Positions 3,387-57,098 of a stretch of DNA of 64,000 bases are shown one piece after another. Below the pieces are notes generated by a model. The model ran no database searches. It saw only the letters and a list, made by a program, of their open reading frames with translations, and was not told the origin of the DNA. The stretch lies in assembly GCF_013113735.1 (NCBI RefSeq), contig NZ_CP053346.1, forward strand, positions 248,001 to 312,000. Reading direction: 5' to 3'. Source of the stretch: Sphingomonas sp. AP4-R1 (lineage in GTDB: Bacteria; Pseudomonadota; Alphaproteobacteria; Sphingomonadales; Sphingomonadaceae). Positions within the stretch are counted from its first letter, which is position 1. Each line of letters opens with the position of its first letter. The translations under genes were made by a program, and so were the position numbers.

Positions 3387-3476
3387 CCGTTGGTGCTGAG
3401 CCTGTCGAAGCACCGCCCTTCCTTCTTCGGCATGGCTGAAGAAAGAACGGCACTTCGACAAGCTCAGTGCAAACGG
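3387..3476. repeat. Palindromic intergenic element, family A copy 1
   Basis: Inverted repeat whose left arm holds GGTGCTGAGCCTGTCGAAGC and whose right arm holds GCACTTCGACAAGCTCAGTG; the element ends in CCGTT and AACGG. It fills the junction between the convergent kduI and metalloprotease genes and could serve both as a bidirectional terminator. Related copies lie in valS and at 37981, 48977, 14702, 18741 and 21888. Confidence 0.8.
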
Positions 3477-14671: not shown

Positions 14672-14701
14672 GGGCTTAACCCATCACCATCCGCTTGCCC
14701 C

Positions 14702-14801
14702 CCGTTTGCTTCGAGCGAAGATCGAGCTTGTCGAGATCATAGTCGAGAAGGATTCTCGACAGTCGCATCTCGACAGGCTCGATGCTGCTCGAACCGAACG
14801 G
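14702..14801. repeat. Palindromic intergenic element, family A' copy 1
   Basis: Begins CCGTTTGCTTCGAGCGAAG and ends in CGAACGG, with internal TCGAGCTTGTCGAGA and TCTCGACAGGCTCGA arms. It is a variant of family A built on the same C/AACGG ends. It lies downstream of the SSS symporter and next to a second element (14821). Confidence 0.75.
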
Positions 14802-18740: not shown

Positions 18741-18858
18741 CCGTTTGGTTCGAGCTTGTCGAGAACCCGCAGCTTCGAGCGAAGCCGAGAAGCGTCAAGA
18801 CCGGGAGCCTTCTCGACTTCGATCTCGACAGGCTCGATCTTCGCTCGAAGCAAGCGGG
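18741..18858. repeat. Palindromic intergenic element, family A' copy 2
   Basis: Starts CCGTTTGGTTCGAGCTTGTC and contains TCTCGACAGGCTCGATCTTC near the right end. It lies just downstream of the valS stop codon and may end or stabilise the valS transcript. Confidence 0.75.
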
Positions 18859-18872
18859 AGGCCGGGAGGAAA

Positions 18873-21815
18873 CTACCCCAGCCGCGCGAGCGCCGCGCGC
18901 AGCCGCTCGGCCTCGGCCGCCTTGGCCGCATGATCCTCGCGCGCCTTGGCGACCGCCTCGGGCTTGGCCTTCTCCACGAACGAGGGATTGCCGAGCCGCC
19001 CCGAAAGCGACGCCGCTTCCTTCTCGGCTGCCTGCGCCGCCTTTTCGAGACGGGCTTTCTCCGCCGCCAGATCGATCACGCCTTCCAGCGGCAGCACGAA
19101 CGTCGCCTCGTCGACCACGATCTGCGCGGCCCCGCCCGGCGCCGCCTCGCCCTCGGCAATCTCGACGCGCGCCATGCGCCCCAGCGGCGCGGCATTGGCG
19201 GCGAGACGCGCAAGCGTCGTCTCGCCCGCCCCGCGCGCATACATGGGCAGGCGCGCGCCCGGCGGCACGTTCAGCTCGGAACGGGTCGCGCGAATGCCCT
19301 GCACGGCGCGGATCAGCCACTCCACCTCGGCGCTCGCCTCCGGATCCAGCGCGCGCGCATCCGCCATCGGCCACTTCGCCACGATGATATCGTGATCGCG
19401 CGCCGCCAGCGCGTGCCACAATTCCTCGGTGATGAAGGGCATGAACGGGTGGAGCAGGATGAGGATCTGATCCAGCACCCAGCCGGCGACCGCACGGGTT
19501 TCGTCCGCCTCGACACCACCCCGTTCGCCCTGAGCCTGTCGGAGCCTGTCCTGAGCGCCTGCCGCAGGCGGGCAGTCGAAGGGGGCCGCACTTCCTTCTT
19601 CACCATCGGCAGAAGAAAAGGACGGTGCTTCGACAGGCTCAGCACCAACGGAAGAGGGAGCGTTGCCCGGAGACAGAACCGGCTTGATCAGCTCCAGATA
19701 CCAGTCGCAAAACTGGCTCCAGACGAAGTGGTAGATGGTGTTGGCCGCCTCGTCATAGCGCAGGTCGGCCAGCGCCAGATCCAGCGCCTGGATCGTGCGG
19801 ACGGCCTCGCCCAGGATCCACTTGTTGACGGCGAGCGTCGCCTTGGGCGGCTCGATCGTGGTGGAGCCGCCGATGCCGTTCGATTGCGCGAAACGGGCCG
19901 CATTCCACAGCTTCGTCGCGAAATTGCGATAGCCCTCGACGCGCTTTTCATCGAGCTTGATGTCGCGCCCCTGGCTCTCCATCGCCGCCAGCGTGAAGCG
20001 CAGCGCATCGGCGCCGTACTTGTCGATCAGGCCCAGCGGATCGACGGTGTTGCCCTTGGACTTGGACATTTTCGATCCGTCCGGCGCGCGGACGAGGCCA
20101 TGGAGATAGAGCGTCTTCCACGGCACTTCCTTCATGAAGTGCAGCCCCTGCATCGCCATGCGCGCATCCCAGAAGAAAAGGATGTCGAAGCCGGAGATCA
20201 GCACGTCATTGGGATAATGGCGCTTGAGCGTCTCGGTCTGCTCCGGCCAGCCCAGCGTGCCAAACGGCCAAAGGGCTGACGAGAACCACGTGTCGAGCAC
20301 GTCGGGATCACGGTGGATCGTCACCGGAACATAGTGTTCTTGCTCAGACACCGTGGTTTCCACGTCAAAGCCCTGTCCGGGCTCGGTGGTCCAAGGTGCA
20401 TCGTCACTCGTGAGAACAGCGAATTCAGAGCCGTAATAGGCGCGAGCTAGCTCTGTTGCTTCTTCCTCGGTAGCAGCGACGAACGGCTCGAGGTTGGCCC
20501 TGTCAGAAGATTCAACAGTGGTCCGCGGCCCCGTCTTCTTCGGTCCGTACCAGACCGGGATCTGGTGGCCCCACCAGAGCTGGCGGGACACGCACCAGGG
20601 CTGGATATTCTCCAGCCACTGATACCAGGTCTTCTTCCACGTTTCCGGCACGACGCGGATCGCGCCGGAGCGCACCGCCTCCAGCGCAGGCCCGGCGAGC
20701 GTCTTGGCATCGACATACCATTGATCGGTCAGCCACGGCTCGATCACCACGCCCGATCGGTCGCCGTAGGGCGTCTGGATCACGCGATCCTCCACCTTCA
20801 GGAGGATGCCGTCCTCCTCCAGCAGCTTCACGATCCAGTCGCGCGCCTCGAAGCGGTCCATGCCGATCAGGTCGATCGGGATCAGGCCGTCCGCCGTCTG
20901 CGTGATCTTCGCTTCGGCATCCAGCATGTTGAGCATCTCGGCCGGCTTGATGCCCGCGCGCACGCCCACCTCGAAATCGTTGAAGTCATGCCCCGGCGTG
21001 ATCTTCACAGCACCCGATCCCAAAGCGGGATCGGCATGCTCGTCCGCCACGATCGGAATCAGGCGGCCGGTGATCGGCAGTTTCACCTTCTTGCCGATCA
21101 GCGCCGTGTAGCGCTCGTCCTCGGGATGGACGGCCACCGCCATGTCGGCCAGCAGCGTCTCCGGCCGCGTCGTCGCCACCGTGATCGTGCCCGATCCATC
21201 GGCCAGCGGATATGCGAGATGCCAGAACTTGCCGTTGATCTCCTTCGTCTCGACCTCGAGATCGGAGATGGCGGTGCGAAAATGGGGATCCCAGTTCACG
21301 AGCCGCTTGTCGCGATAGAGCAGCCCCTGCCGGTACAGCTCGACGAACACCTTCACGACGGCCTTCGAAAAGCCCTCGTCCATCGTGAAACGCTCATTGG
21401 CCCAATCGCATGACGCGCCCAGGCGGCGCAGCTGGCGCGTGATCTGGCCGCCGCTCTCGGCCTTCCACTCCCACACCTTCTCGATGAAGCCGTCGCGGCC
21501 CAGCTCCTGCCGCTTGATGCCCTGCGCGCCCAGATTGCGCTCGACCACCATCTGCGTCGCGATGCCCGCATGATCGGTGCCGACCACCCACAGCGCATCC
21601 TTGCCCTGCAGGCGCGCATGGCGGACGAGAATGTCCTGCAGCGTATTGTCCAGCGCATGGCCGATATGGAGCGATCCGGTCACGTTCGGCGGCGGGATCA
21701 CGATCGTGAAGGGCTCGGCCTCGCCCCGTTCGGGCCGGAACAGGCCGGACTGCTCCCAATGCGGATACCAGCGCGCCTCGATCGTGGCGGGGTCGAAGGT
21801 CTTGTCGATCGTCAT
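18873..21815 (-). CDS. valS: Valine--tRNA ligase, with an in-frame palindromic element
   Basis: Class I aminoacyl-tRNA synthetase charging tRNA-Val, 980 residues. The HIGH motif appears in [17 protein letters not shown] near residues 41-57, the KMSKS motif in [11 protein letters not shown], and a coiled-coil C-terminal arm rich in Ala, Glu and Lys closes the protein. The anticodon-binding domain is interrupted after [17 protein letters not shown] by 44 codons (residues 722-765, bases 19521-19652) that are a copy of the family A intergenic palindrome; the normal sequence resumes at [14 protein letters not shown]. The insert keeps the frame and has no stop. Without it the protein would be close to the usual length of about 900-940. 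It is presumably essential and functional, so the insert must be tolerated. Confidence 0.96.
19521..19652 (-). repeat. Family A palindromic element inserted in frame in valS (copy 2)
   Basis: The minus strand reads GTTGGTGCTGAGCCTGTCG at one end and CGACAGGCTCAGGGCGAACGG at the other, with an added nested palindrome GCCTGCCGCAGGCGGGC. It is the same element found between genes at 3387, 37981 and 48977. It is translated as a low-complexity peptide containing [11 protein letters not shown], and the 44 codons contain no stop. Confidence 0.85.
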
Positions 21816-37980: not shown

Positions 37981-38112
37981 CCGCCCGTCCTGAGCGAAGT
38001 CGAAGGACGTGTTGCTGGACGAATTGCCCGGGGCCCGTGCTTCGACTGGCCGAAGGCCAGCCTGTCCTGAGCGCCTGCCTTGGCAGGCAGTCGAAGGGCT
38101 CAGCACAAACGG
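37981..38112. repeat. Palindromic intergenic element, family A copy 3 (composite)
   Basis: Starts CCGCCCGTCCTGAGCGAAGT and ends GGGCTCAGCACAAACGG. The right half contains the nested palindrome GCGCCTGCCTTGGCAGGC, in the same place relative to CCTGTCCTGAGC as in the valS copy. It lies between the convergent ferredoxin and glnD genes. Confidence 0.8.
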
Positions 38113-48976: not shown

Positions 48977-49064
48977 CCGTTTGCACTGAGCCTGTCGAAG
49001 TGCCGTTCTTCTTTCTCTCGTGCTTTTAAGAAGGACGGTGCTTCGACAAGCTCAGCACAAACGG
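48977..49064. repeat. Palindromic intergenic element, family A copy 4
   Basis: Starts CCGTTTGCACTGAGCCTGTC and ends TTCGACAAGCTCAGCACAAACGG; the centre CTTTCTCTCGTGCTTTTAAG is unpaired. It lies between the small secreted protein and the photolyase gene, both on the plus strand. Confidence 0.8.
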
Positions 49065-53938: not shown

Positions 53939-55999
53939 TCACCCGCCCATCTGATCGATCACGAAGGCGAAGGCCTCCGCCCGCTCGCGCAGCGCCTCGT
54001 AGCGGCCCGATTTGCCGCCATGGCCCGCGCCCATGTTGATCTTGAGCAGCAGCAGCGCCTCGTCCGTCTTGGTCGCGCGCAGGCGGGCCGCCCACTTCGC
54101 CGGCTCCCAATAGGTGACGCGCGGATCGTTGAGCCCGCCCGTGATCAGCATCGGCGGATAGGCTTTCGCCGCCACATTCTCATAAGGCGAGTAGGACAGG
54201 ATCAGCCTGAACGCCTCGGGATCGGTGATCGGATTGCCCCATTCGGGCCATTCGCCGGGGGTGAGCGGCAGGCTCTCGTCCTGCATCGTATTCAGCACAT
54301 CGACGAACGGCACGTCCGCCACCACCGCGCCCCACAGATCGGGATCGGTATTGGCGACGACGCCCATCAGTTCGCCACCGGCCGAGCCGCCGTTGATCGC
54401 GATCCCGCCGGCTTTCGCGAAGCCTTGGGCGATCAGCCCCTTCGCCGCATCCGAGAAATCGTGGAACGTGTTCCAGCGCTCGGTCGCCTTGCCCTGCAGA
54501 TACCAGGTGTAACCCAGATCATCGCCGCCCCGGATGTGCGCGATCGCATAGGCCCAGCCGCGATCCAGCAGCGACAGCCGCCCGGTGGAGAAGCTCGGCG
54601 GGATCGCATGGCCATACGCGCCATAGGCGTAAAGGAAGACCTTGCCCGATCCGTCCTTCGGAAAGCCCTTGGGATAGACGATCGAAACCGGGATCGCCTT
54701 GCCGTCGCGTGCCGGCACGCTCAGCCGTTCAGTCGCATAGCGCGAAGGATTGTAGCCCGAAGGCACCTCCTGCACCTTCAACACCTCCAGCCTGTGTTCA
54801 GCCGGGTGGTAATCATAGACGGTCGAGGGCGTGACCATCGACGAATAGCCGATGCGATAGGCGGCCGGATCAAATTCGGGATTGTTGCCCAGCCCCGCGC
54901 TGTAGCTCGCCTCGGGAAAAGCGACGCGGTGCGTGTCGCCCTCGTAGGTGCGGAGCAAAAGCTGATCGAGCCCGTCGATCCGCGCCGCGACCGCGATGTG
55001 GCGCGCGAAGCTGGCGATGCCCGTGAGATACGTATCGTCCGATCCGGCGATCACCGTCTCCCACGCGCCGGGCGTCGCCGGATCGGCGGAGGCCAGACGG
55101 AAGTTCACATGATCGTCGTTGGTGAGGATCCAGAAGATTCCATGCGCCGCATCGACCGAATATTGGCGTTTCACCTGCCGGGGGGAAACCAGCAGCGGTT
55201 CCGCCGACGGATCGCCCGCCGGCACCATACGGATCTCGCTGGTCTGATTGTCGCCGGTGGCGATCTGGATCCACTGGCGATCCTGCGTGCCGCCCACCGC
55301 GACGCGGAAGCCCTCGTCCGCTTCCTCATAGAGCGTCACCGCCTCGGCCGGATCGGCGCCCAGCCGGTGCAGCCGCGCGCGATAGCTGCGCCAATTGTCG
55401 TTCACCTCGGTGAAGACCAAAGCTTTGCTGTCGCTCGACCAGACCACGCCGCCATTGGTGACGGCGCTGACCGTCTCGACATCCGCCCCCGTCGCCAGAT
55501 CACGGATGCGCAGCGTGAAGCGCTCGGCCCCGCTCTCGTCCGCCGACCAGGCGAGCAGTCGTCCGTCGGGGCTCACCGAGAAGGCCGCGAGCCGGAAATA
55601 GGCCTTGCCCTCGGCCTCCGCCGCCTCGTCCAGCAGCAGTTGATCGGGGCCGCCCGCGACGGGCTTCCGCCAGCGGCGCGGATATTGGCTGCCCGTCTCA
55701 TAGGCCCACCAGTAGAGATACTCGCCATCCTTCTGCGGCACGGAGGATTCATCCTCCTTCATCCGCCCCTTCATCTCCTGGAAGATCGCCTCCACCAGAT
55801 CGGCGCGCGGCGCCATCGCCGCCTCGAAATAGGTGTTCTCCTCCCGAAGATAGGAGAGAACCGCCTCGTCCTTCACCTCCGGATAGAGCGGATCCTTCAG
55901 CCAGTGATACGGATCGTCGAGCGTGATGCCGTGGACGGCCGTTTCATGCGGAATGCGGGTCGCGCGGGGCGCGGGCGGAAGGTCAGCGGGCGTCATCAT
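53939..55999 (-). CDS. ptrB: Oligopeptidase B (protease II, S9A)
   Basis: Serine peptidase of 686 residues that cleaves short peptides after Arg or Lys, usually cytoplasmic. An N-terminal beta-propeller begins with LDDPYHWLKD, and the C-terminal alpha/beta hydrolase has its nucleophile Ser539 in INGGSAGGELMG, the Asp in TGGLNDPRVTYWEPAKW and the His in INMGAGHGGKSGRYEAL. All are family signatures. There is no signal peptide. Two adjacent ATG codons open the frame and either may be used. It is convergent with hisI and divergent from the Tat-exported hydrolase, with a family B element in that divergent region. Confidence 0.93.
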   Translation of the reverse strand: MMTPADLPPAPRATRIPHETAVHGITLDDPYHWLKDPLYPEVKDEAVLSYLREENTYFEAAMAPRADLVEAIFQEMKGRMKEDESSVPQKDGEYLYWWAYETGSQYPRRWRKPVAGGPDQLLLDEAAEAEGKAYFRLAAFSVSPDGRLLAWSADESGAERFTLRIRDLATGADVETVSAVTNGGVVWSSDSKALVFTEVNDNWRSYRARLHRLGADPAEAVTLYEEADEGFRVAVGGTQDRQWIQIATGDNQTSEIRMVPAGDPSAEPLLVSPRQVKRQYSVDAAHGIFWILTNDDHVNFRLASADPATPGAWETVIAGSDDTYLTGIASFARHIAVAARIDGLDQLLLRTYEGDTHRVAFPEASYSAGLGNNPEFDPAAYRIGYSSMVTPSTVYDYHPAEHRLEVLKVQEVPSGYNPSRYATERLSVPARDGKAIPVSIVYPKGFPKDGSGKVFLYAYGAYGHAIPPSFSTGRLSLLDRGWAYAIAHIRGGDDLGYTWYLQGKATERWNTFHDFSDAAKGLIAQGFAKAGGIAINGGSAGGELMGVVANTDPDLWGAVVADVPFVDVLNTMQDESLPLTPGEWPEWGNPITDPEAFRLILSYSPYENVAAKAYPPMLITGGLNDPRVTYWEPAKWAARLRATKTDEALLLLKINMGAGHGGKSGRYEALRERAEAFAFVIDQMGG

Positions 56000-56087
56000 C
56001 GTGCTTATCTGTGGGGATGCCGCCGTCCAGCCGCAAGCCGTGCCTGATATCCTTCCGCTGAAGGGTGAGGATTGGATCTCGCTCCGT

Positions 56088-56182
56088 CGTCATTCCCGCG
56101 AAAACGGGAACCAGCTTCTTCCGTCTGCCTCCAACCACTGTCATGAAGCGAAGTCTGGGTTCCCGCTTTCGCGGGAATGACG
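56088..56182. repeat. Palindromic intergenic element, family B copy 4
   Basis: Starts CGTCATTCCCGCGAAAACGG and ends CCCGCTTTCGCGGGAATGACG. It is one of only two elements in this window that lie between divergent genes (ptrB and the dienelactone hydrolase), about 20 bp before the latter's start codon. Confidence 0.85.
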
Positions 56183-56201
56183 GGACAAGGAGGAGAGTGA
56201 A

Positions 56202-57098
56202 ATGGCCGAGATGCCCGAAAGCACCGCCTTCAGCCGGGAGATCCTCGATCTGTTCGATGCGTTCGTCCATGGCGGCATCAGCCGGCGCGGCTTCATCGAG
56301 AAAGCCACGACGCTGACCGGATCCGTCGCCGCCGCCACCACGATCCTCTCCGCGCTCAGCCCCGATTTCGCCTCGGCGGAGGTGATCGCCCCCGCCGACA
56401 AGCGCATCACGGTGGAGACGGTCACGATTCCCTCTCCGCAGGGCGACGGCACGATCAAGGCCTATGTCGCCAAGCCCGCCGGCACATCGCCCAAAAAGAA
56501 GAAGCCGGTCGTGCTGGTCGTCCACGAAAATCGCGGCCTCAATCCGCATATCGAGGATATCGCCCGTCGCCTCGCCGTGGACGGCTTCATCGCGGTCGCG
56601 CCGGACGCGCTCACCTCGCTCGGCGGCTATCCGGGCACGGAGGACGAGGCCCGCGCGCTGTTCCCCAAGCTGGATCAGGCCAAGGTGCAGATGGATTTCC
56701 TCGCCGCCGCCGCTTACGCGCAGGCGCTGCCGGACGGCACCGGCAAGCTCGGCGCGGTCGGCTTCTGCTATGGCGGCGGCATCGTGAACATGCTGGCCAC
56801 GAAAGTGCCCACGCTGCGCGCTGCCGTCCCTTTCTACGGCGCCCCGCCGAAGCTGGAGGACGTGCCCGCGATCAAGGCCGAACTGCTCGTCCAGCATGCC
56901 GGCAACGACACGCGGCTGGCCGGCACCTGGCCCGATTACGACAAGGCGCTGACGGCCGCCGGAGTCCGCCACGAGGGCTTCATCTATCCGGGCGTCGAAC
57001 ACGGCTTCAACAACGACACCACGCCCCGCTTCAACAAGGCGGCCGCTGATCTGGCGTGGAACCGCACGATCGCTTTGTTCAAGCGGACGTTGGCCTGA
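56202..57098 (+). CDS. Dienelactone hydrolase family protein with Tat signal
   Basis: Alpha/beta hydrolase of 298 residues. The N-terminus carries SRRGFIEKATTLTGSVAAAT, a twin-arginine export signal, after a 25-residue extension. The catalytic core has VLVVHENRGLNPHIEDIARR, the nucleophile Cys189 in VGFCYGGGIVN and the His in YPGVEHGFNNDT. The Cys nucleophile groups it with dienelactone hydrolases, but export and the lack of catechol genes nearby argue for another ester or lactone as substrate. The ribosome site AAGGAGGAGAG lies close to the ATG. A family G palindrome follows. Confidence 0.86.
   Translation: MAEMPESTAFSREILDLFDAFVHGGISRRGFIEKATTLTGSVAAATTILSALSPDFASAEVIAPADKRITVETVTIPSPQGDGTIKAYVAKPAGTSPKKKKPVVLVVHENRGLNPHIEDIARRLAVDGFIAVAPDALTSLGGYPGTEDEARALFPKLDQAKVQMDFLAAAAYAQALPDGTGKLGAVGFCYGGGIVNMLATKVPTLRAAVPFYGAPPKLEDVPAIKAELLVQHAGNDTRLAGTWPDYDKALTAAGVRHEGFIYPGVEHGFNNDTTPRFNKAAADLAWNRTIALFKRTLA

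Follow-up and report, generated by a model that had tools for sequence, protein, structure and literature searches.

How does a palindromic repeat that otherwise lies mostly between genes come to be part of an essential enzyme? This question is raised by valS, the gene for valyl-tRNA synthetase (ValRS), in a 64,000-nucleotide stretch of Sphingomonas sp. AP4-R1 (contig NZ_CP053346.1, positions 248,001 to 312,000; the window). Within valS lies a palindromic element of a family that we call A. The genome of the window is referred to as G000, and other G and L labels denote related genomes and loci. We found that the valS insertion is real and in frame, that it is one instance of a strong recurrent pattern, and that it is probably near-neutral. 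Our preferred explanation, to which we give a probability of roughly 0.86, is that a dispersed, non-autonomous repeat resembling the repetitive extragenic palindromic (REP) elements inserted in a tolerant loop of valS with little effect on the enzyme, and that two loops of ValRS, here called loops 1 and 2, have been hit repeatedly by unrelated repeat families.

The valS insert

On the minus strand, valS forms a single 980-codon frame (21815 to 18873) that stays open across the family A element. The predicted protein matches Pfam families PF00133, PF08264 and PF10458, which stand for class I synthetases, anticodon binding and the tRNA arm, and its match to Anticodon_1 is split in two stretches. 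When it was aligned to the ValRS of T. thermophilus (1gax), residues 722-779 were unmatched, opposite 1gax residues 665-670. These results bear out a preliminary description of the window, which had placed an in-frame element at 19521-19652; the element itself occupies 19521-19651, and the longer span is this interval rounded to codons S722-R765. That description had also supposed that the element inserts when its length keeps the frame. The frame is indeed kept, but 131 nt is not a multiple of three, so it was the net change at the site that kept it, not the length of the element alone.

AlphaFold2 placed the insert between two helices of the anticodon-binding domain as a low-confidence coil, with a predicted local distance difference test score below 50 for residues 720-754. 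Based on this model, the insert is probably a floppy, mostly disordered loop of about 40 residues. As RNA, the element with a few flanking bases folds at -74.9 kcal/mol (z of -4.1 compared with shuffles). When residues 718-770 were used as a protein query, the query itself was the sole match among 36 candidates, and a scan of the 64-kb window with Rfam returned one tRNA and nothing else. The closest relative by ValRS identity, G002 (90%), has no element in loop 2, the loop that is filled in G000.

Two loops of ValRS are filled repeatedly

Loop 2 lies within the segment CDWYLEL...WVLDQ, which mostly has 26-39 residues. As the preliminary description had suggested, we compared valS among relatives: 149 genomes of the window's own taxonomic family, 146 of them with a match. 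Where loop 2 was unread, the match spans alone were used, and these rule out inserts that clearly exceed the query loop in length. Full in-frame repeats fill loop 2 in 10 of the 146 genomes. Five belong to family A (G000, G003, G157, and G152 and G073, which are of the same genus), two to family B (G105, and G022, where a break between two contigs falls at the repeat) and three to family C (G116, G144 and G132). Short pieces in G033, G015, G164 and G129 were read as half-elements. In a named set of 80 loci, 75 of them readable, loop 2 repeats were present in L146, L147, L158, L196 and L206, and a half-like piece in L140. The repeats of L146 and L158 make up a fourth type (D), whose CCCCGGCGAAAGCCGGGG-like hairpins we take to resemble REPs of the CGTC class. 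Going beyond the preliminary description, loop 2 is a recurrent landing site of unrelated palindrome families, and loop 1 is filled more often.

Loop 1 lies between WPFGTLGWP and YPNDVLISG. Its length was read in 109 of 110 ValRS (L026 was unread; the 110 hold at least one duplicate, L012/L183). Most have 8-14 residues here, and 29 of the 109 have more than 20, mostly through the same repeat families. Examples are family A in G002, G003, G004, G005 and L194, family B in L154, L198 and L146, and family C in L132, L150, L158, L165, L191 and L196; other inserts were found in L020 and L174. Perfect stems in loop 1 reach 24 nt. In G003 family A fills both loops, and both are also long in G022, L146, L158, L196 and L206. 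In the 103 ValRS that have every landmark, perfect stems of at least 13 nt were found in loop 1 in 16, in loop 2 in 3 and elsewhere in 3, the last including L005, with a repeat-like insert in a third loop, and L008, near the N-terminus. With codon-shuffled control genes, 43 of 2060 trials yielded at least one stem of this kind.

The third loop, which follows WWGHxIPxWY, contains repeat-like inserts in L005 and L168 (HSRAGGNPEPQ...LDPRLRGDD and RHSGASRNPEGG...LDPGLRRGD). Both look to us like translated CGTC REPs.

A tree was built with FastTree only, from the same 103 ValRS (7 of the 110 lack a landmark) with the loops removed and the families labelled by simple patterns. Loops were scored as long by thresholds of 19 residues for loop 1 and 32 residues after CDWYLEL for loop 2. 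A long loop 1 (30 of 103) required at least 21 changes on this tree and a long loop 2 (7 of 103) required 7, gains and losses being indistinguishable.

Families B and C also occur elsewhere in the genomes. The genomes of L132, L150, L158, L161, L191, L196, L206 and L174 have 15-40 sites each of the family C core, and G144 has 29; G116, which carries a variant, has 1 site, G000 has 7 and G008 has 2. Site counts for the family B core are 28 in the genome of L154, 6 in both G022 and G105, 4 in that of L198, 3 in that of L146 and 1 in that of L140. Among genomes without a B insert in valS, G002 has 8 sites and G000 has 2.

Family A as a dispersed repeat

A 20-mer core of family A, with up to two mismatches, occurs at 160 sites (67 + 93) in the 5.27 Mb of G000, compared with none for a reversed-pattern control. 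A 15-mer from the arm, with up to one mismatch, occurs at 278 sites (132 + 146; control 0 + 1). The copies are distributed across the whole genome, many of them as head-to-head pairs with a spacer and others as solo arms. The arm is present in 48 of 59 related genomes at 1 to 278 sites each, counts of a few being at control level. Family A was also found in 13 plasmid records (28 places), with no annotated gene under the best place in a gene table that is incomplete.

We sampled 72 full copies in G000, that in valS and 71 others. Lengths of 77-95 nt were found in 62 and of 125-133 nt in 10, and the ten long copies, valS included, have in common an extra stretch of the CTTCGACTGCCTGCC..GGCAGGCGCTCAGGACAGGCT type in one arm. 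On sequence grounds, the valS copy is placed in an existing long subtype of family A. A nested second insertion inside the valS copy was considered and rejected because the long form is common to these 10 copies. The preliminary description had equated the valS element with intergenic copies at 3387, 37981 and 48977. This was correct for the first and the last, which are typical of family A, but the element at 37981 is only a diverged composite relative; it includes a stretch similar to the extra stretch of the long subtype. Two intergenic elements, that at 48977 and another about 5 kb before the window, are absent from the syntenic stretches of G002. Thus, the two genomes have gained or lost copies since their split.

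Another proposal was that selection had kept the codons of the element open. However, all 72 full copies have at least one stop-free frame and 60 have three or four. Their lengths show no bias to multiples of three, with remainders of 0, 1 and 2 in 19, 23 and 30 copies, respectively. Selection for open codons is therefore not needed. Openness is a property of the repeat itself, and presumably it is the survival of some insertions and not others that determines the frame.

Family A in other genes

Insertion of family A is rare in the other genes of G000. We sampled 102 clusters, from 452 kb of contiguous sequence and 69 further loci, with a spanning-frame test that requires 60 coding-like bases on each side and so misses elements at gene ends. 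Eight clusters had a spanning frame and coding-like flanks, and two of these are genuine, in valS (flagged through its antisense frame) and in coaBC. The other six were rejected: five lacked any Pfam match, and the domains of the sixth (L052) begin downstream of the element. The coaBC gene of G000 contains three solo family A arms between Pfam domains at 135-307 and 387-568. We could read this linker at 10 of the 30 loci, G000 included, and family A arms or cores lie in frame in G000, G004 and G016 (L258 1480-1700, which is G000:C1 about 4468480-4468700; L274; L277). When the search was widened to 358 predicted genes in the 452 kb, 27 stem regions were found, 9 of which had a 14-mer of at least four copies. 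The only sure repeat insertion among them was that in valS; two others, at 220033-221215 and 303982-305002 of G000:C1, are CGTC-like elements of uncertain status.

Table 1. Positions in the window of valS, its parts and the family A elements.
Feature	Position	Strand	Remarks
valS, valyl-tRNA synthetase	18873..21815	-	980 aa, intact; open frame, homology
Family A palindromic element in valS	19521..19651	-	CCGTT...AACGG, 131 nt; residues 722-765 (VGAEPVEAP...LRQAQGER)
First arm of the element	19624..19651	-	mRNA sense, CCGTTGGTGCTGAGCCTGTCGAAGCACC
Second arm of the element	19521..19585	-	long subtype, with extra stretch common to 10 of 72 full copies sampled
Loop 1 of ValRS	20217..20243	-	EQTETLKRH, short in G000; filled by palindromic repeats in many relatives
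Low-identity segment of valS	20151..20495	-	residues ~441-555; 41-75% DNA identity to sister G002
Family A element	3387..3476	.	outside genes by spanning-frame test
Diverged composite relative of family A	37981..38112	.	intergenic per the preliminary description
Family A element	48977..49064	.	outside genes by spanning-frame test; absent from syntenic stretch of sister G002

A model for the insertions and its alternatives

We have proposed a model that addresses how the element entered valS, why it persisted and why the same loops are filled in relatives. In the first part, a copy of a dispersed, non-autonomous REP-like repeat would enter a tolerant valS loop, moved by some transposase or by a replication-linked process. 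In the second part, the valS copy would survive for two reasons: the net change preserved the reading frame, and several frames of the repeat happen to lack stops. The element would then be translated as a mostly disordered extension between the helices, and it may be close to neutral for ValRS. In the final part, we propose that loops 1 and 2 are hit again and again by unrelated palindrome families within this bacterial family, presumably because insertions elsewhere in an essential enzyme are mostly lost. The presence of unrelated families at the same loops fits tolerant sites that are hit repeatedly, rather than one ancient insert.

Several results weigh against this model. Some long loop 1 segments (for example in L168, L186, L188 and L206) have no perfect stem longer than 8 nt. 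Single family A arms folded as DNA showed no clear gain over shuffles (z of -0.2 to -1.6 in four arms); as the whole element folds far above shuffles, the palindrome is mainly that of the dimer. RAYT (PF01797) had no match in G000, nor in the arm-rich genomes G002, G016 and G022, and arm counts were alike in the 13 of 59 genomes with PF01797 and the 46 without it (Mann-Whitney p 0.74); on these grounds we rejected RAYT as the mobilizer. At the three filled/empty pairs that we compared, the flanks have diverged too far for target-site duplications to be read. The insert common to G152 and G073 has a dN of 0.11 and a dS of 0.34 over 35 codons, which is a weak signal, yet unlike full neutrality. 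Lastly, the low-identity segment of valS (Table 1) spans loop 1, which contains a repeat in G002 and none in G000, whereas other stretches of valS are mostly 82-93% identical to G002 in DNA, apart from 74% at residues 866-905 and 72% at loop 2. Judged from this identity profile, the segment was possibly replaced by recombination. If valS recombines between lineages, some recurrences may be exchanged alleles and our counts of changes would be too high. A conservative minimum would count a single event for each family at each loop: families A, B and C at loop 1, and all four, D included, at loop 2.

A stronger version would make the two surface loops a general landing pad, entered independently by at least four unrelated families across many genera; such a pad would be more than just tolerated, with either the insertion process or some advantage to the enzyme favouring it. 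We consider this rather doubtful. Two rival readings, of targeting and of usefulness, are both compatible with the preferred explanation and overlap it, and the odds of the readings do not add up to one. In the first, the insertion machinery would prefer the loop DNA for its sequence, a hairpin or its replication context, and the recurrence would stem from targeting in addition to survival. The C-type inserts in loop 2 of G116, G144 and G132 (L093, L095 and L304), from three genera, do start at one codon, with PLPxAGG following LIKPVLS and with different spacers, which could reflect the same entry point or an exchanged allele. On the other hand, four unrelated families share the loop, their entry points differ by several codons and copies are distributed across the genome, so that such targeting seems unlikely.

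In the second reading, which we rate slightly lower still, the inserts would be kept because they are useful, for instance by slowing translation between domains through an mRNA hairpin or by providing an extra tail for binding. The strong RNA fold of the valS insert, the recurrence in one enzyme, the perfect stems of 20-24 nt in several relatives and the dN/dS below 1 in G152/G073 are all consistent with this. However, any palindrome is expected to fold strongly, the insert sequences differ among lineages and the insert is mostly predicted to be disordered. Moreover, loop 1 has at most 20 residues in 80 of 109 ValRS, and so most relatives do without.

We think it very unlikely that one ancient insertion diverged into the sequences seen today, the explanation preferred for RPE-4, -6 and -7 of the Rickettsia palindromic elements (RPEs) where these sites are discussed in PMC3767692. 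Inheritance does seem to occur, as the family A inserts in loop 1 of G002, G004 and G005, which belong to the genus of the window, are similar. But families A, B and C are unlike in sequence and each is present in multiple copies in its carrier genomes (D was uncounted), and many relatives have a short native loop. An assembly or frameshift artefact, which the preliminary description had named as a possible refutation, has next to no chance of explaining the insert: repeats often break assemblies and the contigs of G022 end inside the loop 2 repeat, but in G000 the 980 codons are intact in a 2-contig genome rated 100% complete, and other genomes have the same kind of insert.

Relation to known repeats

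The kind of insertion described here is already known from Rickettsia RPEs and in-frame REPs; what is new is a clear hot spot for several families across relatives in ValRS. In the sections cited here, RPEs are described in frame in Rickettsia protein genes at solvent-exposed places (PMC3767692, PMC2229807). RPE-1 to RPE-7 are likewise palindromes of about 100-150 nt that lie in frame in conserved genes, among them those for isoleucyl- and phenylalanyl-tRNA synthetase, and different RPE groups occur near the same site in orthologues. The likeness to RPEs drawn in the preliminary description holds in that valS too is an essential gene with an in-frame repeat. Family A differs from RPEs in its host and in being mostly intergenic (2 of 102 sampled clusters are in genes). 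In addition, the families at the ValRS sites are unrelated and many relatives are empty, whereas the alignments presented in PMC3767692 have an insert in every Rickettsia orthologue. For sites with different RPE groups, that 2013 study weighed a hot spot against one diverged insert; its discussion preferred a common origin and left hot spots possible.

Di Nocera 2013 (PMC3733652) reported, in its main text, in-frame copies of GTAG and CGTC REPs in many genes, and proposed loops and linkers as harmless places. The genes include those for tRNA synthetases in X. oryzae, E. litoralis and S. alaskensis, the latter two being Sphingomonadales. Like family A, these REPs are dimeric, mostly intergenic and sometimes in frame, and the REPs found at the same site in recB of two Xanthomonas may be likened to the recurrence in ValRS. 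Family A is not a GTAG REP by its features: none of the 72 full copies has GTAG close to either end, and PF01797 has no match in G000. It also departs from CGTC REPs as described in that main text, which have an unpaired terminal CGTC tag, a stem of 8-9 bp beginning with AT, a loop of 4-5 nt and a CCA-like tail. Three of four family A arms have stems of 5-6 bp that do not begin with AT and loops of 11 nt, and the fourth has a broken stem and an 8-nt loop. What family A has in common with CGTC REPs is the occurrence as head-to-head dimers (72 full inverted dimers sampled) without a dedicated transposase, as far as PF01797 in G000 is concerned. As in other in-frame intragenic palindromic repeats, there are many copies outside genes, the protein sequence resumes in the same frame after the insert, and orthologues without it exist.

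Small open-frame repeats fused in frame to genes have also been described in enterobacteria (RU-1, RU-2 and RU-3) and Neisseria (NEMIS) (PMC2759123, PMC2229807). These are other repeats in other hosts, and the passages cited describe no repeated occupation of one enzyme loop. No prior report of a ValRS hot spot was found in the literature searched, and 'valyl' is absent from the main text of PMC3733652; Additional file 3 of that article, which may name the synthetases, lies outside this scope.

Sphingomonad ValRS combines empty relatives, several unrelated families and one essential enzyme that can be assayed. Thus, a hot spot and one diverged insert can be tested against each other in free-living, culturable bacteria. 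The inserts also map loops of a class I synthetase that tolerate 30-60 extra residues.

Other palindromes in the window

A predicted open reading frame on the minus strand (55983-57002) contains a repeated palindrome at residues 273-305 (PSFPRKREPRLRF...LVPVFAGMT), and this gene call may be wrong. A palindrome of another type is formed by a 55-nt inverted repeat, 91% complementary, whose arms at 14697-14751 and 18808-18862 are 4 kb apart; its second arm lies just past the 3' end of valS.
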